From Tetradesmus obliquus (lineage: Eukaryota; Chlorophyta; Chlorophyceae; Sphaeropleales; Scenedesmaceae): a stretch of 64,000 bases of DNA. Positions 30,579 through 57,728 of this stretch are shown piece after piece (position 1 is the stretch's first letter; each line of letters starts with the position of its first letter). Below the pieces are notes generated by a model, which was given only the letters and a program-made list of their open reading frames with translations, searched no databases and had not been told where the DNA came from. The stretch covers positions 1,302,001 through 1,366,000 of the forward strand of contig CP126193.1 in the NCBI GenBank assembly GCA_030272155.1. Reading direction: 5' to 3'. Position numbers and translations under genes: made by a program.

Positions 30579-33500
30579 ATGCCGCAAATAGTAGTGAAGT
30601 GGTCAGGCAAGGAGTACGAAGTAGAGCTACCGGAGAGCGATACAGTTGCCAACCTCAAGAGGGTGCTGCAGGAGAAAACAGCAGTGCGTTGCACCATGAC
30701 AGCAGCATAGCATGAACAATATTGCTGGTTGACCAGCAGATTGGCATGTCCATGTTGCCGGGTGATTGACCATTGGCAGTTGAGACAGTTGCAGCAGCAG
30801 CGCAGCACATGGCAATGGCACCAACTGTCCGTTTCATACACAACTGTTTGCATGGATCTCAACAGGCATGATCATGCACCACAATACATATGCCCATGCA
30901 CCTCGTATGCACCGGTGCCGTACAGTTCCAGCAGCATTTGCCCAGCAATACCCACAGCAGCATTTACTTCAAGCATGTGCCTGTACTGCCACCAGCAGCT
31001 GTTTGAGGTGGGATGCTGCTTGTCTTACTCTGCATGCATGTGCGCAGGTTGACCCCAAGCGGCAGAAGCTGCTGGGGCTTAAGACCAAGGATGGAAAGAT
31101 GGCAACAGACGAGGCAGCCATTGCTGACCTGGCAATCAAACCCAACACAAAGGTGCACAACTTGCAGCCTGCACAGCGAACTGGCAGCGTTTGTGAATGC
31201 CGTTCCTGCCAAATCACAACCGTGCCTGTAAATCAACATGCAGTTCATCAAGAAAGCAGTTCAGCGTCAAGCAATGCCGCTGCACAAGCAACAGGCAGCC
31301 CGCCCACCTCTTTCAAACCATCACACGCCTGCCTTATGTGGACAACTGCTGCAGGTGATGATGATGGGTCAGCCTGAGGCAGTGATCCAGCAGGCACATG
31401 CAGAGGCGCTGGCAGCGCCCGAGGTGCAGGACGACTTTGACATAGGCGCGGAGGAGGAGGCAGCGCTGCAGGTGCGGCTGTGCTGCCGCAGCGCTGAGCT
31501 GGCGGCATGTGCAGTGTGTGTTTCAACAGGTTGCAGCACATGTGCATCTTGTGGCACAGCAGCAGCAGAGGCCTAGCCAGGCATGATAGGTAGTGCAGTT
31601 GATGGTGAGCACACCATGCGCAGCACGTAATGCAGCGCAGACAGCACTGTCCGCGCCACTTGCATGCTGGCAGGCAGGTACGCAGGATGCCACTGACAGC
31701 CTAGCAAGCATGCATGCGGTCAGATGCAGAGCTGGGGTGTTGCCTACTGTTACAGGTCACCTGTTATACAGCTCATGAGGTGGCTGCTGCTGCTGCTGCT
31801 GCTGCTGCAGGTGAAGGACAAGCCTGAGGTGCAGGAGAAGCTGCAGCGGCGCATCGCCAGCACAGAGGTCAAGATCATGCACCCGCCACGGCCAGGTGTG
31901 CACTGGGCTGCAGCAATTGTTAGTGTGTGTTGCTTGCAGGCACTTAGTGACAAAATGGCAGTCTGCCATGTAGCCAAGCAAATGTGCCACACACCAAACA
32001 CCAACTTGTGCTTACTGGTGTGCTTAGCTGCTTGTTGGTTGCTGCTTACTGACGTGTTTGTGTGTGCATGGGGTGCGCGCCGGGGTGTGTGCAACCAGTC
32101 CAGCAAGACATGCCTGGCGCTGACATCAACTCCACGCTGTTCGACGTCAACAGCAGCGCTTGTGCGCCCGTTTATACGCTTGCACATGTCTGCCTGCATT
32201 TGCAGGCAAGAAGTGCCTGGTGCTGGACATTGACTATACAATGTTCGACCTCAACAGCACATGCTGCTGACACAGCGCTTGCGCCTGTATGTGTGTTTGT
32301 GTCTGCCTGCATTCGCAGGCAAGAAGTGCCTGGTGCTGGATATCGACTACACGCTGTTTGACCTCAACAGCAGCGCGGAGCGGCCTGACGAGCTGGCGCG
32401 GCCCTACCTGCACGAGTTCCTGTCCGCCTGCTATAAGTTCTACGACATCATCATCTGGTCAGCCACCAACATGAAGTGGGTGGAGGTGAGGCGGCACATT
32501 TCTGCTTGACGGCACAGCATACCAACGGTACTGCGTGTGGGCTGCCTTCTTCCTATCACATATTTGATGCATGTGCCTCCAAGCCTGGCAGCCAGGTAGG
32601 CAGGCAAGGGTCCCAGATCACCTCATGCTGTTCAACACATCGCATGCATGGTGCGTCCTGTGCCGCCTCATCTACGCCCTCAACCCTACACGCTGCACCC
32701 CGCAGGTCAAGATGCGTGAGCTGGGCTGCCTGAGCCACCCGCAGTACAAGTTTGTGTGCATGCTGGACCACAAGGTGAGCCGCAGCAGCAGCAGCAGCAG
32801 TGGCGGCAGCGGCAGCAGCATCACACGCGGCAGTGCAGCGTTGTGGGCCGCATCAACAGCAGCAAGGCAGCAGCATGGTTTAGACGGCCGGCAGGAGGTC
32901 AGCTGCCGCCCTGCCCACCTCAGCGCAGGCGCAGCAGCTTTTTGCACATGTGATTCAGCACACTCACTTTCAATACTAGTCAAACGCTGTGAGCTGGCTT
33001 GGGGAGTGTGTGCGTGATGGTCGCATGAATTGCTGTGCCATTTCGCTGCTGCTTGCTGCTGTCTGCTGCCACGTGCTGCAGGCCATGGTGACTGTGCAGA
33101 CAGAGAAGTATGGGGTGTTTGACTGCAAGCCACTGCAGGTGAGCTGCTTGGCGTCATTTGGTGTGTGGCAGTGCACCCTGCGCCACGTGCTGCTACTGCA
33201 CACACGTAACGCGCGTGCTGCCAGGTTGTGTGTGCGGCTGCATGCCTGTTGCGGGTCGGGCTGGCTTAAGCACATGCACGTGTCACGACTTTGCCTGCTG
33301 CGCCCTGCTGTGTGCCCAAACTGCTGCAGTTCATCTGGGCCAAGTTTGATGAGTATGATGAGGACAACACTGTCATGCTGGACGACCTACGGTGAGGCTG
33401 TGGCAGTGGTGTAAGGCTGCACAGCCTCACTTACTCAATGGCAGAGTTGTGCACCATTTGTATGAGAGCACATGCTGTGAAATCGCCAAACCTGGCAGCT

Positions 33501-33800
33501 CAGCCAATTCAAAACCAGCAACCACCCTATGACTGCTGCTGCTGCTGCCGCTGCTGCTGCTGCTGCCGCTGCTGCTGCTGCAGGCGCAACTTCATCATGA
33601 ACAAGCAGAACGGCCTGGTCATCCGCCCCTTCAAGAAGGCCCACCTCACGCGCCACCTGGACCAGGAGCTGCTGCATTTGATGCATTACCTCACACTGGT
33701 GGGCCAGCTGGACAAGCTGTCTGGGCTGGACCACAGGCGCTGGGAGCGATACCTGGCCAAGCACGGCGCACGCGCGCTGCAGAATGCTGCGCTGCAGTAG
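30579..33800 (+). CDS. UBLCP1: Ubiquitin-like domain CTD phosphatase (UBLCP1)
   Basis: Nine exons (30579-30683, 31048-31152, 31355-31471, 31811-31895, 32319-32485, 32706-32774, 33082-33138, 33330-33391, 33584-33800) join to 327 residues, close to the 318 of the human protein. Residues 1-80 form the ubiquitin-like domain ([41 protein letters not shown]). The HAD/FCP-type phosphatase follows: catalytic D145 and D147 in [19 protein letters not shown] (184-191), and the D253-D254 pair in VMLDDL, then [11 protein letters not shown] and the C-terminal [16 protein letters not shown]1 binds the 26S proteasome in the nucleus through its Ubl domain and dephosphorylates it. All catalytic residues are present, so it should be active. 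The acceptors of exons 4 and 9 end CTG repeats. Degenerate copies of the catalytic exon precede exon 5, and copies of the last exon follow the stop codon. Confidence 0.95.
32102..32318 (+). repeat. Two decayed copies of UBLCP1 catalytic exon start
   Basis: Each copy comprises the first ~60 bases of exon 5 plus the intron end before it. The copy at 32206-32318 has its own acceptor (TTTGCAG) and still reads [18 protein letters not shown], but runs into TGA at 32268. The copy at about 32102-32205 has a deletion and reads [12 protein letters not shown] in another frame, with the second catalytic Asp changed. The functional copy starts at 32319. Confidence 0.85.
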
Positions 33801-33845
33801 GTGAAGCGCAGGGTGACACTGGCGTAACACAGCCCTGCAGTGGGG

Positions 33846-33914
33846 CACAGGCGCTGGGAGCGCTACCTCGCTAAGTATGGCTGCCGCGCATTGCAGAATG
33901 CGGCGCTGCAGTAG
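33846..33914 (+). repeat. Second copy of UBLCP1 last-exon end
   Basis: The segment repeats the end of exon 9 from CACAGGCGCTGGGAGCG through the TAG at 33912, with scattered changes ([11 protein letters not shown] in the copy). It lies 46 bases past the real stop at 33800. It is not reached by the reading frame. Confidence 0.85.
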
Positions 33915-34070
33915 CGGCCGCGCACTGCCGGACGCGAGGCTGCAGTAGGGCTCAAGCTGGTTCCCGGGAACTGCAGTGTTGCAGCACTGCAGCGAGGCGC
34001 GAGGCGGCACTGCGTCATGCAGCACTGCAAAAGGGCGCAGTGGGATACTCCTAAGCGCAGACTGGTGGGC

Positions 34071-34178
34071 CAGCTGGACAAGCTGTCGGGGCTGGACCAC
34101 AGGGCTGGAGCACGGGCGCGGGGAGCGCTACCTCGCCAAGCACGGCGATGCGCACTGCAGGATGCGGTGCTGCTGTAG
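34071..34178 (+). repeat. Third, degraded copy of UBLCP1 last exon
   Basis: It starts farther upstream in the exon ([13 protein letters not shown]) and ends at the TAG at 34176. An insertion and frame shifts separate it from [11 protein letters not shown] still weaker fourth remnant can be seen at about 34441-34485 (GGCAAGCACA..CTGCAGAATGCAG). Confidence 0.75.
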
Positions 34179-34485
34179 GGCACACGTGCACTGCACATAA
34201 GTTGAAACTCCTGACCCAAGAACGGCGCATTTCACGTCACAGCGATCAGCAGGCCCTAAAGTCAGCAGCTGCTGTGGGCTGCTGATCTGCAACTGGCAGC
34301 TGCTGTAGTGTGTGTATGCAGGCGCGTGTGGCGTGCACGCTGCATAATTGTGTTGCTGCGGCAGCTGCTGCAGCTGGCATTCTGGTGGCAGCTCCAGCGA
34401 GGGTTGGTGCAGCTTGTTGAGGTAGGGTGCCTGCTGCTGGCTAGGCAAGCACACAGCGTCCTGCAGAATGCAGCAATGCAGCCGT

Positions 34486-37454: not shown

Positions 37455-39234
37455 ATGGCCACGGCAGCCTTCGAGATGCTGGTTTGATCATTCCAACTGC
37501 TCCGCTAAGTGGTGAGTATGTTCTGATGCATTCAAGCACATCATAGTGGCGTTGACCACCTGAGCTGCTGGCGATCCTGCAGCTAAACCTGCTGCTTTGC
37601 TGTTGCTACTGCTGCTGCCGCTGCACCTCGTACCTCACCATGCGCATTGTGTGTCAGCTTGCAAGACAAGTGGCAAGACATGCATGAAGCGGTCTTATAT
37701 GTTGATTTTAGCATATTTGCACTGCGGATGGCTGCAGGCACGAGTTGAAGAAGCCCTCAGCAGGCTAGCTGCTAACCAAGCCTGCTGTACACCTGCCCCC
37801 AGCAGAGCTGGTGCTGTTTGTGGCACACCAGCGCAGCACAGCATGCCACTGCAAGCATTTGCTGAGAAGGTAAGCTACTGTGATGATCAGCAATGTAGCG
37901 GTCCCCACAGCTGTAGCACACAAGGCACCGATTGGTGCAAGCACAGCTGAGCTTCAAAGCAGAATGGTCAGCCAGTAGTGCTGAGGGAGCTGTGACTCGC
38001 CTTGTTGGCCACGCTGGCTGAGGCACGCATCGGCTAGGGGCATCTGCAAATCCCACGCGATGCTATCTTACTGACAGCCTCAACCGAACAATACACCAAA
38101 CAGCCTGCCACATTTAATGCACAAACACTTCTCTCATTGCTTTCTTCGTCTCTGCTGGCTGCCCTCACCTGCCCTTGCACTCAAAATCCAAAACATCACC
38201 CTATTCAAATTCAAAATTCAAACGCTCGCAGGCCCGCCAGTCGCTGGGCGTGGGCATCCCTCCCTTCCAGCCCATCAGCCTCACCCGCTACAGCCAGGCG
38301 CTGGGAGAGGCACAGCGCTACGCGGCATGGCTGGGCGCGCTGCGGCGGGAGCTGCAGGCGGGGCAGGCCGCAGTGGCTGGTGAGTGCAAAGCTGAAGAGT
38401 GCTGAAGAGTGCTGGAGTTGGATAGCTTGCCTGCTGCTTCCTTGCTTGCGCTGCAAGTTGACGTGCCTGGGTGTGCTGGATCTGAGTTACGTGCGTGCCT
38501 GCTTGCTTGAGGCAGCTGGCATTGGTTGCGTACACGAATCCTGGGTGTGTGGTGGTGCATGAGCGCCTGTTGTGTACGCATCTGTGCTGCATCAATCTGC
38601 CGGGGAATTGCATAGAAGGCAGGCAGGCAGCAACATCTGCTTAAATATGTTTGGGCTGCTGCGAGCACACAGCAGGCACACCAATAGCTTTGCACCACTG
38701 CTGCCACAACACCCGTGACTGGTCCTTCCTCGCCCCTCCTCGCTCACCCCAGGTTTTTTCGTGTCCTCCCTGCTGCTCCACACCACTGGCGGTGTGCTGC
38801 TGCTGCACTGCTGCCACCTGCCGCTTACTCACTCACTCACGCAAGGTTTCCTTGTGTACTCCCTGCTGCTCCACACCACTGCCTGTGTGCTGCTGCCTCA
38901 ACTGCTGCCACCTGCCGCTTACTCACTCGCTCACCCCAGGTTTCCTCGTGTCCTCCCTGCTGCTCCACACCACTGCCTGTGTGCTGCTGCTGCAACTGCT
39001 TCTGGTATCCCCGTCTCTTCACTCATGCCAGGTTTCCTGGTGTCCTCCCTGGCCGCTCTGCCAGACTGCCCGCTGCCGTCCCTCTACAGCGAGCGCGTCG
39101 ACAACCACGAGCTCACCACCATACCGCCACCCCCGCCACCACCCCAGCTCGCACACCTCTTCACGCTGCCGGCAGCAGCAGCGGGCGCAGCACTGATGCG
39201 CGGCACGCAGCCAGACGCCATTGCCATGCCGCTG

Positions 39235-39378: not shown

Positions 39379-42067
39379 GCTGCCAGGCACATGCCCACTG
39401 GCAGGGCCAGCAGAATATATGATTCTGGGCTTGAGAGCCAGCTGCTGTCTGCGGGGCAGTTTGCTGAGCTGTCGGAGGCCATGCAGCGGCTGCCTGGGAG
39501 CTTCCGCGCAGCCGCGCAGTCGCAGCTCCTGGCGCCGATTGAGGTGTGGCTGCAGGCCTACAAGGAGGCACAGGTAAGGAGGCTGCGATTGGTTTCATTG
39601 CTTGTGTTTTGGGTTACACGTGGGTTTGCGCACCGCGATAGGACGGCATGTGATGAGTCGAACGCGTGCATCTTGAGAGCAGCAGTAAGCTGCACATGCG
39701 TACATGTGCCACCTCTTGCAAGCGCTGCAGCGTAGGCAACAGCATGATGCCTCTTTGTTGATGCTGGCAGTCTGTGCGCTACCTCAACAAATCTCTTTCC
39801 CCATTCCATTCCTGCAGGTGCGCCTGGGTGCCCTGGACAAGCTGCGCCTGCAGGTGGATGCTGCGCGCCGCAAGCTGGACAGAAAGGGCAGGGCAGCGCT
39901 TGCCAGCATCACCAACGGCCACAACAACACCCACGCTGCTGCTGCTGCTGCTGCCGCCATGCCAGCAGCAGCAGCACAGCAGCGGGCCACCACCACTACC
40001 ACAACCGGCCACATCAACAGCAGCAGCAGCAGAATCAGCAGCCATGGTGTGCCTGCTGCTGCTGCTGTGGGTGCCTCTGGGCTGTCAGCGTCCTGGGCGG
40101 AGGAGCCTGCTGCTGCTGCTGCTGTGGCAGTTGCTGAGGGTGGGGGAGCTGGCGGGCTGGCTGGGACGCAGCAGGTGCTACAGCACGACCTGCAGCGTGA
40201 GTGGCGGCATGTGCTGCTCAGCTGTGTGTGTGCGTTTGTCCTGCAGCCAGAGCCCGTGACGCCTGTGGCAAGGCTGACTGCGTCGCAAAGAATTCCTTCA
40301 CCAGGGTTGGAACATGCTTTTCATATATCCATCCGTATAAGCAGCTTGATGGTTTGCGCACTCTACTCCTCTCTTGACGGGCATTATGCCGCACATGCTT
40401 CCCTTGCTCCTTCGCCCAAACCACATGCCATTGAACTAGCTAGTGTGCTGTGCTCTGTCCTTCCTGCCAATCGCCACGCTGCTGCATGCTGCGCTCTCTC
40501 CTTCAGCCCTTCTGTCAGAGTTTGCAGCAGCGGAGCAGTCCCTGTCAGTGCTGCTGACCTGGCTGGTTGACCAGGCGGCGCGCCTCAGGGCGGCACTGGC
40601 GGCGCTGCTGCTGCAGCTGGCCACTAGCCTGGAGCACTGGCAGCTGCCACAGGGGCTGCTGCAGCCGCTGCCTGCTGCTGCAGGACCGCTGAAGGTGAGC
40701 CGGCTGCTGCTGCTGCTGGTGCTGCTGCTGCTGGTGCTGCTGCTGCTGCTGGTGCTGCTGCTGCTGCTGCTGCTGCGTGGCATGTTGGTTCTTGAACAAC
40801 ACTAGTGGCAGTACAGAGACATTGCAACCAGTGTGCTTAAGTATGTGTCAGCCAACTCTACGCAGTGACGCTGCAGCCCATTACCGCAGCCATTGTTGCA
40901 CAACAGTTTCTATTTGTTCGTTGCCAACACAGAGCTCACACCTTCAGTTTTGGTAAACGCCCGACACAGCTTGCACCCGACCTGCTGTCACCTCTGTGCT
41001 TGCAGGGCGCTGCTGGCATAGTGCCTGCCCCTGCTGGCCCCCTGGGGGAGGGCGCCCTCTCACCAGAGATTGAAGAAGCCAGCTACACACACAGCCACAG
41101 CCACACCCACAGCCAGAGGCAACATCCCATGGTTGCCGCTGCTTCTGCACGCGCCGCTCTGCACCACTGCCTGGCGTCAGCTGCTGCCGGCCCCCTGGGG
41201 GAGGGCACGCTCTCGCCAGAGATTGAGGAAGCCAGCTACACCCACAGCCACACCCACAGCAATGAGCCACACCATGCAGTTGCGGCCGCTGCCGCACGTG
41301 CGCAGCGCTGGCTGGCCTCAGCAGCTGCCGGGCCCCTGGGGGAGGGCCGGCTGCCAGCAGGTGGAGATGAAGAAGATGCTGCTGGTGATGAGTTCAGATA
41401 CGAACCACACCCTGCTGCTGCTGCTGCTGCTGCTCGTGCGCAGCCGCGCAGCTGGCCTGCATCATCAGCTGAAGCAGCAGCAGCCGGGCGCGGTTTCCAC
41501 ATTCGACCCTCGTTTGAGGCGGAGCGGCAGCTTGAAGTTCTCAGGGAGGAGCGTGAACTTGAGGCTGAAGTTGCGCAGCGGCAGCTGTCGATGCAGCAGC
41601 ACGGCAGCAACGCAGCGATCGGCGCCATAACAGGGGACCAGCCAGGCAGCGCGAGTGCAGCTGAGGGGTCCCCTGGCGGCAGCAGCAGCAGCGGCAGCAG
41701 TAGTGCTGCAGGCAATGGCGGCAGCTCTTCAAATGGCTTGCAGCAGCGGCAAATGCCAGGAACCTCAGTGCAGTGGGTGCCAGGGGTAGGGGTGGTGCCA
41801 GCTGACAGGGAAGATGCTGCTGCTGCCTCCACACTTGGTGTGCCAGTGCGCAGCCGCAGCCGCAGCAGTCTTGTCAGCAGCCGCAGCCGCAGCAGCCGCA
41901 GCCTTGCCAGCAGCGGCGCCAGCAGCAGCAACGTTGCAGCACTCAGCCCTGCTGCTGCTGCTGCTGGAGGCAAAGCAGACCAGCAAGCAGTGCCAGCAGC
42001 AGCAAGTGGTACAGGGGTTGCAGCAGGAGCAGATGCCGGTGGCAGCAGTGCAGCTGCTGCTCCTGCT

Positions 42068-43226: not shown

Positions 43227-46200
43227 GGTCCTGCCTGCTGGGGCATTGTTGCCTTGTTGTTTGCAGCTGTTGTGCATCTGCGCCGCTGCATGCCTGAGCA
43301 ACACTTCTGGGGCCAGGCATGGCAAGGCCAAGAGGGCCCTGTAGGGTGTTGACCCCTTGCCCACAGCAGCATAACATATAACTGCCATCTATGTGCTGTA
43401 CGACCCTGTTACTGTGGGGCTACTTGACATGGTTGATGACACCGATCTGTTTGCAGGCTCCTCTGTCTCTCTTGTGCTTGCTGCTGCTTGTTGATGCTAA
43501 GTGTGCCTGCCTGGGTTATTGCTGCTGCAGTCGTGCAGCAGCGTGAGGAGGCCAATGCTACACTGGAGCAGCTGCTGCCTGCTGCTGCTGAGCTGGCTGC
43601 TGCGCGGGAGGCAATTGCAGGGCGGCTGGCGGGAGCAGAGCGGGAGGTGATGCAGCAGGAGGGCAGACTGAGGCATGTGGAGGAGCAGGTGAGGTCACAT
43701 GGTACATGCAGTTGTTGACAGAGGGATTACAGTTAGTTGCATGCAAACAGGCTATGATACAACCGTTGTGTGGGGCTGTGTGCTTTGACCGTGCATAGAT
43801 GCGTGGCAGGAGGCAAAGTGTGGGTGCTCCTGCAAGGGTTGGCCTCCCTGTCTGCAGCAGGATGGCAGGCTGAGGCATGTTGAGGAGCAGGTGGGGTCAC
43901 ATGGTACACGCAGTTGTTGACAGAGAGCATACAGTTGGTTTCATGCAAGCAGGCTATGTCAATACATCCGTTGTATGGCGCTGTGTGCTTTTGGCTATGC
44001 ATGGCTGCGTGGCTGGAGGCAAAGTGTGGGTGCTCCTGCAAGGAGCTGGCCTCCCTGTCTACAGCAGACAGCTGGCTGTGTGCAATGCCATGCTTTGTTA
44101 GGCCAGCTATTGCGAGCATAAATGGCAGCAGCACGCGCTGATCTGCACTGCCTGCTAGCCCTGCTCCAGCACAGCAACCAGCCAGCCAGCCAGCCAGCGA
44201 AAAACAGCCTGGCAGCCCGAACAATGCTTTTTGCCCCTGCTTCAGCTGAGCAGCCAGCCAGCCAGCGCTACATGCACGGCCTGGCAGCCCTGTACTCAGC
44301 TTGATACACAACTGGCCCCGTATGTCATTTGCGGCACTGCCTGTGGTGTGCAGGTGTCAGCTGCTGCTTATGAGCTGGCGGCTGCTGAGGCGGCTGCTAT
44401 TGAGGCCAGGCAGCGGCTGCAGGCGGCAGAGCAGCAGCTGCAGGAAGGTGAGGCGCTCGTGAACACGCTCGTGCTGCCTACGAGGTTACGTGTGCTTGTG
44501 ATGGCGATGGTTGCTACATATATACATGTGGCTTTAAGATGGTGCCAGGACCCACATGTGAATTCTCTCTCTCACATATGTACGTGCTCAGCGGCATTGG
44601 GTGGCAGGAGGCACGAGCTGTGCACACCACGTGAAGGTGTTTGCCATTAGCATGACTCAGACACCTGTATATCTGCCTGCAACCTGTTTCATGGCCGCAG
44701 CCACCAGCCGCATGGCAGACACACGCTCCCTTGAGGCAGCAGCAATTGTCAAGCTTGCAGACATGACTCGCGTGCAGCTGCCCAAAGCAGCAGGCCACGC
44801 AGCAACAGTGGCTGGGCTAATGCAGGGCCAGCAGCAACAGCGGCAGCAGCTGCAGGTCCAGCTGCAGGAGGCAATCAAGGAGCAGCAGCAGGAGCAGCAG
44901 CAGGAGGCGCAAGTCAAGGACATGTGAGTGTGGCGGCCTCATGTGGTGAAGCACATGCACGGATTTGTATGTGTGATAGGAAACATGATCGCCTCTTCAC
45001 GCTTGATTGAATGTTAACGGACAGCATGCAATTTGTGCCATTGTGCAACTGCCACAGCGCACTGCAGGGAATGCTTCTTATGGTTGCACATCACTGACGG
45101 CACGCCCCTCTGCTGCTGCTGCTGCTGCTGCTGCTGTGTCTGCGTTTGCAGGTCTGCTGCTGGCGCCAGCAGCCTATCTGATCTGGAGGCCACTGCAGAC
45201 CGGCTGGCCTGCCAGGCGGCAACGCTGAAGGCCAAGGCTGCTGGCGCTGAGGGGCTGCAGGCGGCTGAGCAGGCCCGCGCAACAGCAGCGGCTGCAGAGG
45301 CACGTGGCCTGCAGGTGGGGCACAGTGGCTGAAGGGCAGCAGCAGCACCAGCGTGTAGTCGGGCGTGTCTATCTGATGCGCAGCGCAGCTGCACGGTTTG
45401 TGCGTGTTGCGTACCCAGTTGCTGCTTCGTTGCTGGGTGTTTCAAAGTGGCTGCTTGATCGCCAAGCAACGAAGGAGAAACTGGGTACAGTTGCGGTCAG
45501 TTGCGGTCACCTTCTGCATGCGTCTCGCTGGGCTAGCACTTGGGAACAGTTTCGCCTTCTCAAATTTGATGTAGCGTGTCTGGGTCATTGCCGTGCGGGG
45601 TGCTAGTGTGCAAGCAGAGCACTAACCAAAAGATACGAGGCATGCACCGTGTAAAAAGTGCGTTCACTTTCTGCTAATTGTGCTTGCTCCAGCAAACCAT
45701 CTTTCTGCGTCCAGCTGTGCCCCTCCTGCTGTTGCCACTGCCGCTGCTGCAATCATCTGAACTGTGCCTTACAATGCATGTTGCCTGCGCACTGTGTTAT
45801 CAGGCTGCTGCCAACACCTTGCAGAGGACCACTGAAGCAGCAGGCATTGAGCAGCAGCAGCAGCAGCAGCCTCCCATTGCAGTCCCTGCTGCAACCGCTA
45901 CTGTTGCCGGTGAGGGCACCGAGGCAGCTGCCACCCCTGGGACTGCAGAACAGCTTTCCTCTACTGCTCCTGCGGCGGCTGCTGCTGCTGCCACCACTGG
46001 AACTGCTGAAGAGCAGCGGGAGGTGCCAGTCAGCACAGCCAAGCCAGCAGGCTGGTGGCGCAGCCTGCAAAAGGTGTGAGACTTGAGCTGCATGGGACTA
46101 GTGCATGAGCGGCTGCCTGTGTGCTGTGCTGTTGGCTGCAGCAGTAGGTTGGTGTGATGTCAAACAAAACATGTGGTGGATGTGCATGGCATGCCAGCGT

Positions 46201-47198: not shown

Positions 47199-49559
47199 AC
47201 CAACCATGCCTCAGCAAGCGCTAGCACCTACAACCACTGGCAGCAGCAGCACCCCCACCTTCTTCACCCCCACTGCCAGCCTGGAGGTTGCTGCTGCTGC
47301 TCCTGCTGCTGCTGATGCTGATGAGGCTGCTGATGTGGCGCAGCCCCTCCCACGTGATGCTGCTGAGCTGGCACATGGTGCTGCTGAGCTGGCACCACCT
47401 CCTGCACATGATGCTGAGCTGGCAGCTGCCGCTGCTGAGCTGGCACATGAAGGTGATGATGACCTGGCGCCGCTCCCCACACACGACGCTGAGCTGGCAG
47501 CTGCTGCTGAGCTGGCACACACAGCGCGGCTCAGGCACGACCCCAGCCTGGCAGCAGCAGCAGAGGCAGTCAAGGAGCAGCAGGCGGTGCAGGTGGCGGC
47601 ATATCTTGGGGTGTCGGAGGCAGCGGCATGGCGCATTGTGGGGCTGCCTGCTGAACCAGCAGCAGCAGCACGGGAGGTGCCGGCAGCAGCATTGCCAGGA
47701 ACAGCAGCAGCAGCAGCAGCAGCACCAGCAGCGCCAGCAGGCAAGAAACCGGCCGTGATGGTGATGCCGCTGTCAGGAGTGGCAGAAGAAGAGCCTTGGA
47801 TGGAGGAGGCAGCAGCAGCACTGGCAGCAACAGCAGCAGCTGAGCAGCAGCATGCAGCAGCGCCTCCTGCTGCTGGTGCGGCAGCAGAGCAAGCGCCAGC
47901 AGAGCTGGCAGCTCCTTCTGCTGTAGAGCGCATTGCAGAGCAGCCAGAAGCTGAGGACGATGCGCTGCCACCACTACCAGCAGCAGCAGCAGCAGCAGCA
48001 GCGCCGTACAATGCACGCAGGTCTGAGACCACCATGGGGACAGCAGGCAGTCTGCAGGGCCGCGACCAGTCTGCATCCTCCTTCAACAACAACATTGAAG
48101 CAGCAGAGCCTGGAGTAGTCAAGCTGGATGTGCAGCCCAAGCCAAGGCAGCACATCACACTCATGCTTGCAGGGCCGCTAGGTGGAGTAGAAGATGCAGG
48201 GAGTGTGCCAGTGCAGGGTGTGCTGGTGGGTGGGCCCTCTGCAGCAGAACAGCAGCGTGAGTATGCACTGTATAAGACGCAGCGGCAGTGGGCCAGCCAC
48301 CGGCGTAAGGTGGAGGCTGCAGCAGCAGCAGCAGATGCAGCGAGGAACAGGAGGGGTAGCGATACGAATGGCAGCGGGAAATGGAGGCAGAGGGAGGCAT
48401 GGGGTGAGGTGCCTAGTGCTGGTGGCTGGATGCCGCTGGCTGCTGCTGGAGCAGCAGCAGATGAAGAGGCGGTAGCAGCATCTGGCCTCGCAGGCCACAT
48501 GCGGTTCCCTGAGCTTGCAGATTCAGCAGCAGGGCATGCAGCTGGCACTGGCATCATGCCGCTTCAACATGCACATCAGCAGGTGATACAGAGTGGTGCA
48601 TCCAGCAGCAGGCAGCTTCCTGCTGCTGCAGCAGCACCAGCTGGGCCTGCAGAGGCAGCTTCTGGTGCTGACAGTGGTGATGGCAGTGGTGCTGCTGAGG
48701 CAGCCAACAGCAAGGTGTGGCGTTGGCAGCAGCAGTCAGCAGCAGCGCCAGCAGAGGAGCAGGGACCACTGGCAGGCTCTGAGCCTGGTGGCAGGTGTGT
48801 GGTGCCGCGTGTGATGCAGCGTTTTCAGTCTTGAAGGATGCACACGAGCACTGGCTGCATGCGTGCATAACATCTAGCACGGTCCTGTATGGTTGCATTG
48901 ACAGAGCAGCTGCTGTACGCTCAGCAGCCTGATGCGTGGCAGTACATCAACCTGCTTGCCCAGCCGTACAGTCTGTGAAGATCTGTCCTGCATTTGCTCG
49001 GTATTTTGACATGTAGGCTGGCTTGCCATCGGCTGCTACACTGCTGGTGCCGTGCAACACATACAACAGTTGCCTGCCCATCCCCAGCCTGAGGCTGTGC
49101 TGCAACTTGTGGCTGTACCCAAGCTGAAGCACAAACTATCGCATGCTTCTTTATGTGCTGGTGCGTACTGCCCTCTTGCCATCCTGCAGGCTCCCTGACG
49201 CCGCCAGCCCAGGCATGCAGCTGCCCGTCTCTCACCCTGCGCCATCAGCCGGCGAGGCTATGCACACAGCACACAAAGGAACAGCACGCCACCACAAGCA
49301 CCAGCAGGCACAGGCGGTGGGGGCTGGCGGTGCTCCACAGTATGCAATGCTGCCTCATCATGCTGATGCTGCTGGTGCTGCGCCGCATGCCAGCAGCCGC
49401 GCTGCAGACGGCAGCAGGGGTGATGCCAGGGCGAGTGGCGCCTGGGAGGGTGGCGGTTACAGCCGCGGTGCTGACGCAGCAGCACAGTCGCTGATGCGGC
49501 AGTGGCAGGCGCTGCCAGGCCCGCTGGAGATGGGCGGGGAGATGCCGCTTAGCCGCTGA
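37455..49559 (+). CDS. Giant BAR-domain and coiled-coil protein
   Basis: Sixteen exons agree in phase: 37738-37869, 38232-38379, 39032-39573, 39818-40196, 40507-40694, 41006-42197, 42453-42739, 43047-43176, 43531-43688, 44354-44447, 44701-44923, 45152-45314, 45804-46073, 46446-46814, 47107-48794 and 49190-49559 (2110 residues). A first exon at 37455-37481 (MATAAFEML, Kozak-like GGCCATGG, weak donor GTTTGA) would give 2119; it is the least certain part. The first ~470 residues look like a BAR domain, a curved helical dimer that binds membranes: ARVEEALSRLAANQ, FQPISLTRYSQALGEAQRY, LSEAMQRLPGSFRAAAQSQL, YKEAQVRLGALDKLRLQVDAARRKLDRK and LLSEFAAAEQSLSVLLTWLVDQ. Next come three GPLGEG..SPEIEEASYTHSH repeats, an RS-like stretch, heptad coiled coil (residues ~880-1220) and Ala/Gln-rich tails. 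A membrane-remodelling scaffold is a reasonable inference. The BAR call is by eye. Confidence 0.7.
38753..39031 (+). repeat. Three upstream copies of exon 4 acceptor region
   Basis: Three units of 92-94 bases start at 38753, 38846 and 38940. They precede the functional exon start at 39032. Each carries an AG followed by a near copy of the exon start (GTTTCCTGGTGTCCTCCCT) and a CTGCTGCTCCACACCACT segment. All keep an AG, so all are potential 3' splice sites. Confidence 0.85.
39241..39376 (+). repeat. CTG and AGC tracts in BAR exon
   Basis: A (GCT)n run at 39238-39264 is read as polyAla. An (AGC)n run at 39340-39375 is read as polySer, about 14 residues. They lie within a disordered insert of the BAR-like region. 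Confidence 0.85.
40700..40782 (+). repeat. CTG/GTG tract at an intron 5' end
   Basis: Runs of CTG interrupted by GTG triplets begin within 10 bases of the donor at 40695. Confidence 0.85.
41036..41460 (+). repeat. Three in-frame protein repeats, His-rich
   Basis: Units of about 47-51 codons start with GPLGEG. Units one and two continue SPEIEEASYTHSH..HTHS and end in Ala-rich SAA. The third has lost the His/Thr part for an acidic DEEDAAGDE segment. The alternating His could bind metal; this is inference. Confidence 0.8.
43656..44064 (+). repeat. Tandem duplication of exon end plus intron
   Basis: Unit one runs 43656-43857 and unit two 43858-44064, about 202 bases apart. Unit two copies the last 33 bases of the exon (QEGRLRHVEEQ becomes QDGRLRHVEEQ). 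It has an AG before it (TCTGCAG) and a GT after it (GAGCAG|GTGGGG). The mini-exon 43858-43890 is 33 bases and in phase. Confidence 0.85.
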
Positions 49560-49824
49560 GCAGGTTTTTTGAGCATGATGATTGAGGTGGATGCCAGCAT
49601 TGTTGGCTGCCCTGCAGGACTCGGCACTTTGCAAGACGATAATTTACCTTTCTGGCAGGTGCATCTTGCTGCCAGGGCCTCTGGAGGTGGGCGGGGAGAT
49701 GATGCTCAGCCGCTGAGGGTCTTTTTCTCGAGCATTTTGATTGAGGAGCATGCCAGCATCAATGCTGGATACCCTGCAGGGCGAGGCACCTTGCAAGACA
49801 ATATGGTTGCTTGTGGGCAGGCGC
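49511..49824 (+). repeat. Tandem copy of BAR gene last-exon end
   Basis: The end of the coding region and its 3' flank (49511-49667) is repeated at 49668-49824, period 157. The copy includes CTGGAGGTGGGCGGGGAGATG and its own CCGCTGAG stop context. The copies differ by scattered substitutions. A further short echo of the CTGAGCCGCTGAG motif sits near 49920. Confidence 0.8.
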
Positions 49825-55070: not shown

Positions 55071-57728
55071 AGCACGAACTAGCTCAGCACCTATAACGCA
55101 ACAGATTTCAGCATTGATCGGCCGGTGAGTCGGTGACCATCAACCCCAATGTGGTTAGCCCAGCCTGCCGCTCCTTCGTGCTGTAGCAGGCAGCCAAGTC
55201 GTGCGCACCTGACAAATCCATATGATATACTTTGCTACGACAACTGTACCCAACAACAAAAGCTCCGCCACCGGGTGGCCCTTCGCCCTACTTATCAATG
55301 GCCTGTTTTTGAGAAGTGCTCACACAGGATCCGCTTCAAATAAAAATTCGGGACTCATCTAAAGCATACAGGTTGTACATGAAGGTGCGAGCTCGTAATA
55401 ACCACACTGTTATTTGCCATTTGCAAGGTGGCGTTGTCTGGGATGCTGACAGGCAGGATAAGCAGGAACTCTCACCCAGTGCATTCAGTACCTGTGGCTG
55501 ATGATCAGGTACGTGGGAAGTACCGATGTGAGTTGGCTGGGCGCTTGCTTGCTGCAGCTGCTGAGCTTCGAAGCTCATGAATTCATGCTGCATTGGCTAC
55601 CGCAGGCACATGCGTACTGTACCACAAGACTTCCTGCCATGACTGGGCAAAGGGTAAAGATAGGACAACACTTTTTTGCGTGAACTGATGGTCTGCTTTC
55701 TTTCTCTTTTTCTTTCTGACCGCAACTTGGTCCTCTGCATGTCAACAGCAACTTTGACTGTACTGAGATCAGGCCACTGGCCACGCCGTGACGGTTGACC
55801 AGGCTGAGCAAGCGCGAGTGAACAGGTGTGAGTGAGGTCCACACAGGCACTGGGAGAATCTAGTTCCCAATATTGATCGGACCAAGTGTTTTTTGTTGAA
55901 GGTTGATTCACAACATTTTTGGCATCAATGGTGACAGGGCCCGGCCGCAGGGCAGGTCAAGCCAGCAGCACCAACTTGAAGGACTTGGCACATTTGTGAA
56001 CTTCAAGGCGTACCACCTGAAAGCTGGAGTGCGTGTGGTGTGATGTATAAGAACGAATCTAGATTTCACCAATGCCCATCCACTTGCTGTTACTGCCAGC
56101 TGCCATGGCACAGCACAGCGCATCCGCATACTCGTCATGTTGCTATTTGAAACACAGCAACAGCGCCACCAGCCCAGCGCCCTACTGATATTACTCCCCG
56201 ATTCTGCAGCAGAAGGGAGGGGAGAGCACAGCTGCAAGGTGCTTGCCAGCATTGCTGCAGCTCAGCTCAGCACATGTATATGTGAAATGTGCGACTGCAA
56301 CAGCAACAAAACATGTTGGGAGGCAGTGCCCTGACACATGCTGTGTCAGCACTTGAACTTAAAGCATATTTTTAGCATATTTTTCATCCAACGCAGGCTC
56401 TGGAGCAAGTACCAAAGCACCCCAGGCCAGACAATGTGTGCCTGATGTGGGTATGCGCAGCACTGATGACAGCAATGGCAGCAATGGCAGCAAGTGCCAC
56501 CTTCTACAGAACTTCTCGAGCTGCTGTTAGAAGACACTGATATCTGCTGCACACCCTAGCAACCAACAGCAGTCAAAACCCACACGTACAGTTAAAAACC
56601 ACAACAGGATGGTGTACCAACCCAATGTGCCAGAGGACACCTTGCTCACTGAGCTGAGTCAGCATGTTGTGCAATTAGAGCCACTGAGTTCAGACCCTTG
56701 CAGCACATGAGCACTGCACTCAACAGGACTGACCAGGCGTTTCTGCAGATTTTGCAAAATCCACAACGCAGGCAAACCAGCCCTTGACAGCACAGCGTTC
56801 TAGGCCCTTGATGACTGCTGAAATGAGCATGCAGGTGAATCGTGCATAATTCATAACGCTTTGCAGCAAAGATGCATACAACTCTGTACTGGCTGCAGAT
56901 ACGTACACAGTCTGATAACTCAATCACAAACGACTCCCATGATGTTGACACACTGACAAAGACGATACGTGTAACAAGCACAAAGGCGTACTTGTAACAA
57001 CTAACACTGTTATGAAACTGGCGTCTGTTACGCATGCTGAGACGGCGGCAGGCTTGCAGCCAGCACCCCACCCCACACAGTAGGACCACAGCCAAGACCA
57101 GATCTCAGCCTGACGGTCAGGTGCATCTCACAGCACAGCTGCAGCGTTGCAGCTGCCTCGCAAAATGCGCTAAACAAGCACAACACTGCCAGCAAGGTCT
57201 GCTGCAATCCAGTTCACTCTCAAACTTGGGCCACATGAGTACAACGTAGCATGCGTAGCACTCTTTGACAGTCTTTGGCCTTGCAGGCACACTGTCTTCA
57301 TTCTGAATCAACACCATCCAGTAATAGTAATATGCTGTCATTGGCACTTGGATCCTTGCAATGAAGTTCTGTCAAGTCATTCAAACACACTGGGCAGTCG
57401 ACAAGCATGAACTTCACACAACAGACATCTGTCAAATCATTCGGCTGCCATAGCACAGCAGAACTTCACACAACAGACATCTGTCCACCTCATTCGGCTG
57501 CCATAGCATAGCAGAACTTCACACAACAGACCTTGGTCAACCTCATTTGGCTGCGATAGCATAGCTGATATCACAACCCTGTACACTTGACCTCCACAGC
57601 ATGCAGCATGCTGCATTTGCTGTGTAATGCCGCCCAACACTTCGCTTGATCCGCTGTTCCCTGCACAACCCAGCTACCCGTCTCACAGATCAGCTCAGCA
57701 AGGCTCGCCAAACCCCGCAGTCACTGCC
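55071..57728. other. Intergenic, 2.7 kb
   Basis: The region upstream of the first ARM gene and downstream of the second. It is poorer in CAG repeats than the genes. It contains a 52-base minisatellite. I find no supportable gene; several open frames of 60-150 codons lack motifs and consistent splice partners. Confidence 0.5.
57409..57563 (+). repeat. 52-base minisatellite, three units
   Basis: Units begin GAACTTCACACAACAGACAT at 57409, 57461 and 57513 and continue with a TCATTCGGCTGCCATAGCA segment. Divergence rises in the last unit. A partial unit precedes at 57365. Confidence 0.85.

Follow-up and report, generated by a model that had tools for sequence, protein, structure and literature searches.

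Partial copies of exon edges in the UBLCP1 gene and in many other predicted genes of Tetradesmus obliquus

The catalytic exon of the UBLCP1 gene of the green alga Tetradesmus obliquus is preceded, within the upstream intron, by two partial copies of its own start, the nearer of which carries a splice acceptor. Do such copies take part in the expression of the gene or are they remains of past duplications, and how exceptional is this arrangement in the genome? The question was raised by a sequence-only reading of a 64-kb stretch of DNA (the window, to which all positions refer unless a sampled stretch is named), which described the two copies, predicted that splicing to the nearer one would join a Ubl domain to a stump of phosphatase, and considered a duplication of this kind unusual. 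We found that its description of the locus was largely accurate, whereas its judgment on rarity is not supported by a sample of this genome.

The protein predicted from the gene (Table 1) matches the Pfam ubiquitin family at residues 4 to 76 (E = 6.1e-10), which gives it an N-terminal Ubl domain, and the NIF phosphatase family (E = 8.4e-24), with the DxDxT motif present. The UBLCP1 structure PDB 3shq matches residues 4 to 315 of 327 (E = 5.4e-92), and the motif is aligned. By both criteria, the Ubl domain on the one hand and the NIF phosphatase domain with near full-length similarity on the other, the predicted gene is UBLCP1, the name that it had been given at the outset. A protein search of the whole genome (104.66 Mb, 17 contigs) found no second copy; it returned at least 11 matches at E values up to 10, all in the UBLCP1 locus, the search scoring only the best candidates and its counts being lower bounds. 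Our home-made gene finder recovered all 9 exons and added one spurious exon of 3 nt, a weak check because the finder had been seeded with UBLCP1. Rfam and tRNA scans of the window yielded no match.

Table 1. UBLCP1 and the partial copies of its exon edges, in window positions
Feature	Positions	Strand	Description
UBLCP1, coding part	30579..33800	+	9 coding exons, 327 aa, intact; frame closed, GT-AG introns
UBLCP1 exons 1-5	30579-30683, 31048-31152, 31355-31471, 31811-31895, 32319-32485	+	
UBLCP1 exons 6-9	32706-32774, 33082-33138, 33330-33391, 33584-33800	+	
UBLCP1 exon 5	32319..32485	+	Encodes the catalytic motif DIDYT; preceded by the true acceptor, ending at 32318
Farther partial copy of exon 5 start	32103..32159	+	One-base deletion; Asn replaces second catalytic Asp
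Nearer partial copy of exon 5 start	32187..32259	+	First 54 nt of the exon, preceded by 19 nt from the end of the intron
First downstream copy of last exon's end	33846..33914	+	Stop codon included; 84% over 69 nt
Second downstream copy of last exon's end	34058..34179	+	80% over 123 columns

Alignment confirmed both partial copies of the DxDxT exon. The nearer, in direct orientation upstream of exon 5, matches 32300-32372 at 90% over 73 nt and retains an acceptor ending at 32205; six of its codons differ from those of the exon, 5 synonymously and 1 nonsynonymously. The farther copy matches 32319-32376 at 84% over 58 columns. It has indeed lost the second catalytic Asp, and its one-base deletion, which had previously escaped notice, sits before the motif. 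Its acceptor sites score -0.09 and -0.36, below the 5% quantile (2.51) of 195 predicted acceptors. The donor at 31895/31896 and the acceptors ending at 32205 and 32318 lie where they had been placed. Splicing to 32205 would produce a 158-aa protein, the predicted Ubl domain with its stump: the frame reads 18 residues beyond the acceptor, followed by CC and the stop. The nearer copy had been said to run into this TGA. The codon is there, in frame at 32268-32270, but it falls just beyond the copy's homology, so that as read from the alignment it is a stop of the non-homologous linker rather than an exon codon that decayed after copying. The sequence CTGAC at 32267-32271 overlaps it.

The acceptor of the nearer copy is as intact as had been claimed, scoring 7.96 against 7.25 for the true site (the median of the 195 predicted acceptors is 6.86). 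Since these values are similar, site scores do not tell which of 32205 and 32318 is used. A branch-point-like CTGAC starts 52 nt upstream of the true acceptor, while the sole such match for the decoy is TTTAT at 35 nt; the consensus used for these matches is a generic one, not trained on this genome. Among the donor-like sites between the two acceptors, 32220 is the best at 3.47, about level with the weakest of the true UBLCP1 donors (3.5 to 9.04), and it lies 14 nt into the copy. None of these sites yields an open in-frame extra exon. An 81-nt cassette exon at 32206-32286, using GTATGT at 32287 as its donor, was discarded, as that donor scores -0.54 and the exon would contain the TGA. Most likely, the true acceptor is used and the exon 5 copies are inert. 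Low-level mis-splicing followed by mRNA decay is possible; decay of any message spliced to 32205 would be a fair expectation, because four introns would follow the stop.

Exon 5 is not the only exon of the gene with such copies. The end of the last exon is also present in two decayed copies; both include the stop codon, lie 3' of the UBLCP1 stop (33841-34194) and were absent from the first description. The window has five further local duplication clusters, at 38739-39051, 41031-41347, 43651-44067, 49511-49803 and 57404-57568; in the one at 43651, an apparent exon end is repeated together with its donor (GAGCAG/GTGAGG).

We determined how common such copies are in a sample amounting to 0.3% of the genome. 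The discovery set (264 kb) combined the window with 20 stretches of 10 kb (L010-L029) taken at fixed round positions, not at random, on the 17 contigs. Five held-out stretches (L030-L034), which brought the total to 314 kb, came from 80 random draws, were picked before their letters were seen and stayed outside the training of the finder. Exons other than those of UBLCP1 are predictions of this home-made finder, seeded with UBLCP1 and retrained on the discovery sequences. Exons shorter than 45 nt or with a coding score below 6 were left out before counting, as were BLAST hits below 46 bits or of low complexity. A local copy was defined as a direct one within 700 nt of the exon, and a separate tally was kept for copies sharing at least 15 nt with a predicted exon of the same gene (discovery set, 73 of 131 hits; held-out set, 12 of 44).

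Self-comparison revealed local duplication clusters, 66 of them in the 20 sampled stretches (200 kb) and 7 in the window. One replicate of the same sequences generated from a first-order Markov model contained no local cluster, and no hit was obtained when each of 207 exons was compared with the sequence flanking one exon from a different record. Because both controls were empty, the exon copies, those of exon 5 included, exceed chance. Non-exonic local copies accompany 36 of the 207 predicted exons of the discovery set, in 19 of 42 genes, and 19 of the 42 held-out exons, in 5 of 7 genes. Together this makes 55 of 249 predicted exons (22%) in this one genome. The duplication in UBLCP1 thus loses its exceptional character: this gene is one case among many in the sampled genome. 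If exonic copies are admitted as well, the counts rise to 61 of 207 and 22 of 42, or 83 of 249 overall. In the open-access literature, insofar as its text was available, we found no description of partial exon copies as being frequent in T. obliquus, and an earlier report is possible.

Copies occur preferentially on one side of their exon. The 58 non-exonic copies of the discovery set comprise 34 exon ends located downstream and 19 exon starts located upstream; the 5 others are 1 start found downstream, 2 interior fragments and 2 copies spanning the exon. The 32 held-out copies comprise 16 ends downstream and 11 starts upstream, with 2 spanning and 3 interior copies as exceptions. Overall, 80 of 90 copies are exon edges on their own intron side, and no inverted exon copy is present among the discovery or held-out hits.

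The affected genes include conserved ones. Nine of the 24 genes with copies were picked as conserved-looking and tested, and all 9 had a Pfam match, among them glutamate-cysteine ligase, EFTUD2, PAF67/eIF3L, SDA1 and RNase H. In the glutamate-cysteine ligase gene (L014, 1687-5589), the edges of several predicted exons are copied; the start of the last exon is copied upstream and its end downstream, a layout much like that of UBLCP1. Elsewhere (L031, 7869-8510, and L027), intact edge copies are seemingly strung into PAF67/eIF3L-like and EFTUD2-like proteins, where they appear as repeated peptides. It thus seems that the gene finder predicted some intact copies to be exons, for which reason the non-exonic count probably understates the number of copies.

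We consider it likely that the exon 5 copies are leftovers of short local tandem duplications across the exon edge, whose orphan halves decay in introns. The duplicated stretch would have consisted of the end of intron 4 and the start of exon 5. After such an event, the reading frame would continue from the last copy only, and the earlier copies, which bring their own acceptor, would be left stranded in the intron. Having no job, they would accumulate base changes and small indels. The same process would have operated at the end of the UBLCP1 last exon and at about a fifth of the sampled exons. When a tandem duplication spans an exon edge, its orphan half remains in the intron, which accounts for starts being found upstream and ends downstream. 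At exon 5, the nearer copy agrees with such an event: it directly repeats the end of the intron and the start of the exon, and it lies on the side of the intron. The whole 113-nt unit is not conserved, however: 73 nt of the 113-nt spacing are alike, and homology in the intron ends after 19 nt. The rest of the unit was presumably lost by decay, and other copies in the sample do show long intron homology.

Several features of the sample point to the same origin. Local pairs within 1000 nt across the 314 kb are direct in 150 cases, overlapping-unit arrays excluded, and inverted in 2. Splice-edge copies lie 80 to 470 nt from their edge, 52 of 71 at 100 to 260 nt, 4 nearer and 15 farther. In 106 splice-edge pairs, homology extends into the intron by more than 30 nt in 40 cases, by 13 to 30 nt in 35 and by at most 12 nt in 31; these pairs, like those used below to compare exon and intron parts, include copies that the finder calls exons. 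Some pairs are homologous up to the 150-nt limit of the comparison. Long intron homology supports tandem duplication followed by decay. By alignment, the intron part surpassed all 20 shuffles in 29 of 37 edge pairs, low-complexity introns included.

The copies are probably unused in splicing. Decoy AG dinucleotides are retained in 22 of 30 cases (23.3 expected from identity squared) and decoy GT dinucleotides in 35 of 41 (33.8 expected). As retention is near the neutral expectation, decoy splice dinucleotides seem to be neither purged nor held as a class. Site scores are less in line with a purely neutral copy: retained decoy donors score 5.99 on average, against 5.97 for the true ones, and 28 of 41 score at least as high as the true site; for retained decoy acceptors the means are 5.61 and 7.5, and 8 of 30 are at least as high.

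These observations bear on the possibility that splicing at exon 5 is regulated and unproductive, with some transcripts using 32205, stopping after 158 codons and being destroyed, so that the level of UBLCP1 is tuned. The decoy acceptor matches the true one in score, its product would be truncated, and the changes in the nearer copy are mostly synonymous, all of which speaks for such a function. Nevertheless, no clean cassette exon can be drawn, the donor at 32287 being poor and that at 32220 lying within the first nucleotides of the copy; by the generic branch-point consensus the decoy has only TTTAT where the true acceptor has CTGAC; and copies are common in unrelated genes, their splice dinucleotides being retained at about the neutral rate. 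We therefore regard this function as improbable.

The suggestion that a stable short protein, made of the Ubl domain and the phosphatase stump, competes for the proteasome demands more still. The frame does allow the 158-aa product, and UBLCP1 binds RPN1 through its Ubl domain, according to a published study (PMC6568242), but both decoy splicing and escape from decay would be required and the stump would terminate within the phosphatase domain. We give this proposal very little credence.

Just as far-fetched in our estimation is intron gain in progress, in which 32205 would be used and a new short intron would run from a cryptic donor in the copy to 32318. It has a precedent in the potato RdRp gene, where a tandem duplication across an intron-exon boundary is reported to have given rise to a new intron, with support from RNA reads (PMC4974935). 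The anatomy is the same: the duplication spans the boundary, its unit joins the 3' end of an intron to the 5' start of the next exon, and both copies have an acceptor. In UBLCP1, by contrast, both the frame and the stop speak against a new intron, and the duplication is one of many events in the sample. With the donor-like sites at 32213 or 32220, the message would gain 7 or 14 nt and lose its frame, and with 32287 it would gain 81 nt that include the TGA; none of these candidate donors gives a frame-keeping new intron. In the AGGT model of intron gain, a short tandem duplication also occurs locally within a gene, but it is exon sequence that is duplicated, and the new intron forms from what lies between the two AGGT copies, whereas the UBLCP1 unit crosses an existing splice site.

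Other known arrangements resemble the locus in part. In tandem exon duplication leading to mutually exclusive exons, copied exon sequence likewise adjoins the original. Such exons are complete copies with an acceptor, a donor and an open frame, whereas the UBLCP1 copy is partial, its candidate donor at 32287 is not a good one, and the frame hits a TGA. Introner-type repeated introns also place sequence copies in introns, but in many introns of different genes; the exon 5 copy is local, and a 421-nt query of the region had one match in the genome, itself, with simple repeats and very common words skipped in the search. Finally, tandem repeats are a known site of assembly errors, but an assembly artefact can practically be dismissed, as the copies differ from the exon by 10 to 16% through base changes and indels, hardly the product of misassembly, and similarly diverged copies occur at many sampled loci.

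Tandem duplication followed by decay does not account equally well for all properties of the copies. In the 90 copies, changed codons comprise 244 synonymous changes, 224 nonsynonymous changes and 8 stops. The synonymous share, 0.513, exceeds the mean of 0.432 and the maximum of 0.493 obtained by simulating neutral copies, a null that depends on the assumed mutation spectrum; none of 300 runs was as high. The deviation was larger among the 53 copies with at least 88% identity (106 synonymous, 65 nonsynonymous, 3 stops), whose share of 0.609 compares with a simulated mean of 0.45 and a maximum of 0.583, again reached in 0 of 300 runs. The 37 older copies fit the null (0.457; 24 of 300 runs). 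With three other spectra, the 58 discovery copies remained above the simulated maxima (0.525 versus 0.445 to 0.491). Young exon-edge copies in the window and in both sets of sampled stretches (L010-L029, L030-L034) differ from their exons mostly by synonymous changes. As possible sources of the synonymous excess we considered conversion by the exon and the copying of sequence from another haplotype.

The intron parts of the pairs raise a related point. In pairs with at least 93% identity, intron homology ends at most 12 nt from the junction in 13 of 45 cases and extends beyond 30 nt in 20 of 45; the intron sequence next to some nearly identical copies is unrelated. When two copies of one edge are compared with each other, their exon parts are more alike (0.872) than their intron parts (0.780). 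The exon part is the more similar in 52 of 71 pairs from 24 families and the less similar in 16, although the copies had been found by exon similarity.

Duplications also touch exon edges more often than random placement predicts. With the array-like clusters (44 of 109) set aside, 48 of the 65 other duplications reach the edge of a predicted exon, where 24.8 were expected, and no placement among 300 gave as many. We considered a mechanism that targets exon edges and do not claim it, because unequal detection could explain much of this enrichment: an exon duplication decays in one copy, and a duplication confined to introns or intergenic DNA does so in both. The features that a purely neutral copy does not explain could each owe something to conversion from the exon, to earlier use of the copies as alternative exon ends, or to copying that favors edges.

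The UBLCP1 locus on its own is thus ordinary for this genome, and what is surprising is how frequent such copies are in it. A broader proposal, which we put forward tentatively and think rather unlikely in its full form, is that a fifth to a third of T. obliquus exons have copies of their own edges with working-looking splice sites, the young copies being held close to the exon by coding constraint or by conversion from it. If true, duplicated splice sites would be permanently on offer in the genome; the spliceosome would select among them, and they could become the source of alternative exon ends or of new introns. The UBLCP1 copies would then represent a late, broken stage. The seeming inclusion of intact edge copies as extra exons in conserved proteins is also a hazard for annotation. 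As a class, edge copies amount to a large natural collection of paired splice sites that are almost equal, although a working message results from just one site of each pair. Such pairs could reveal what, beyond the site itself, guides the choice of the spliceosome, and they bear on how introns and exons move.
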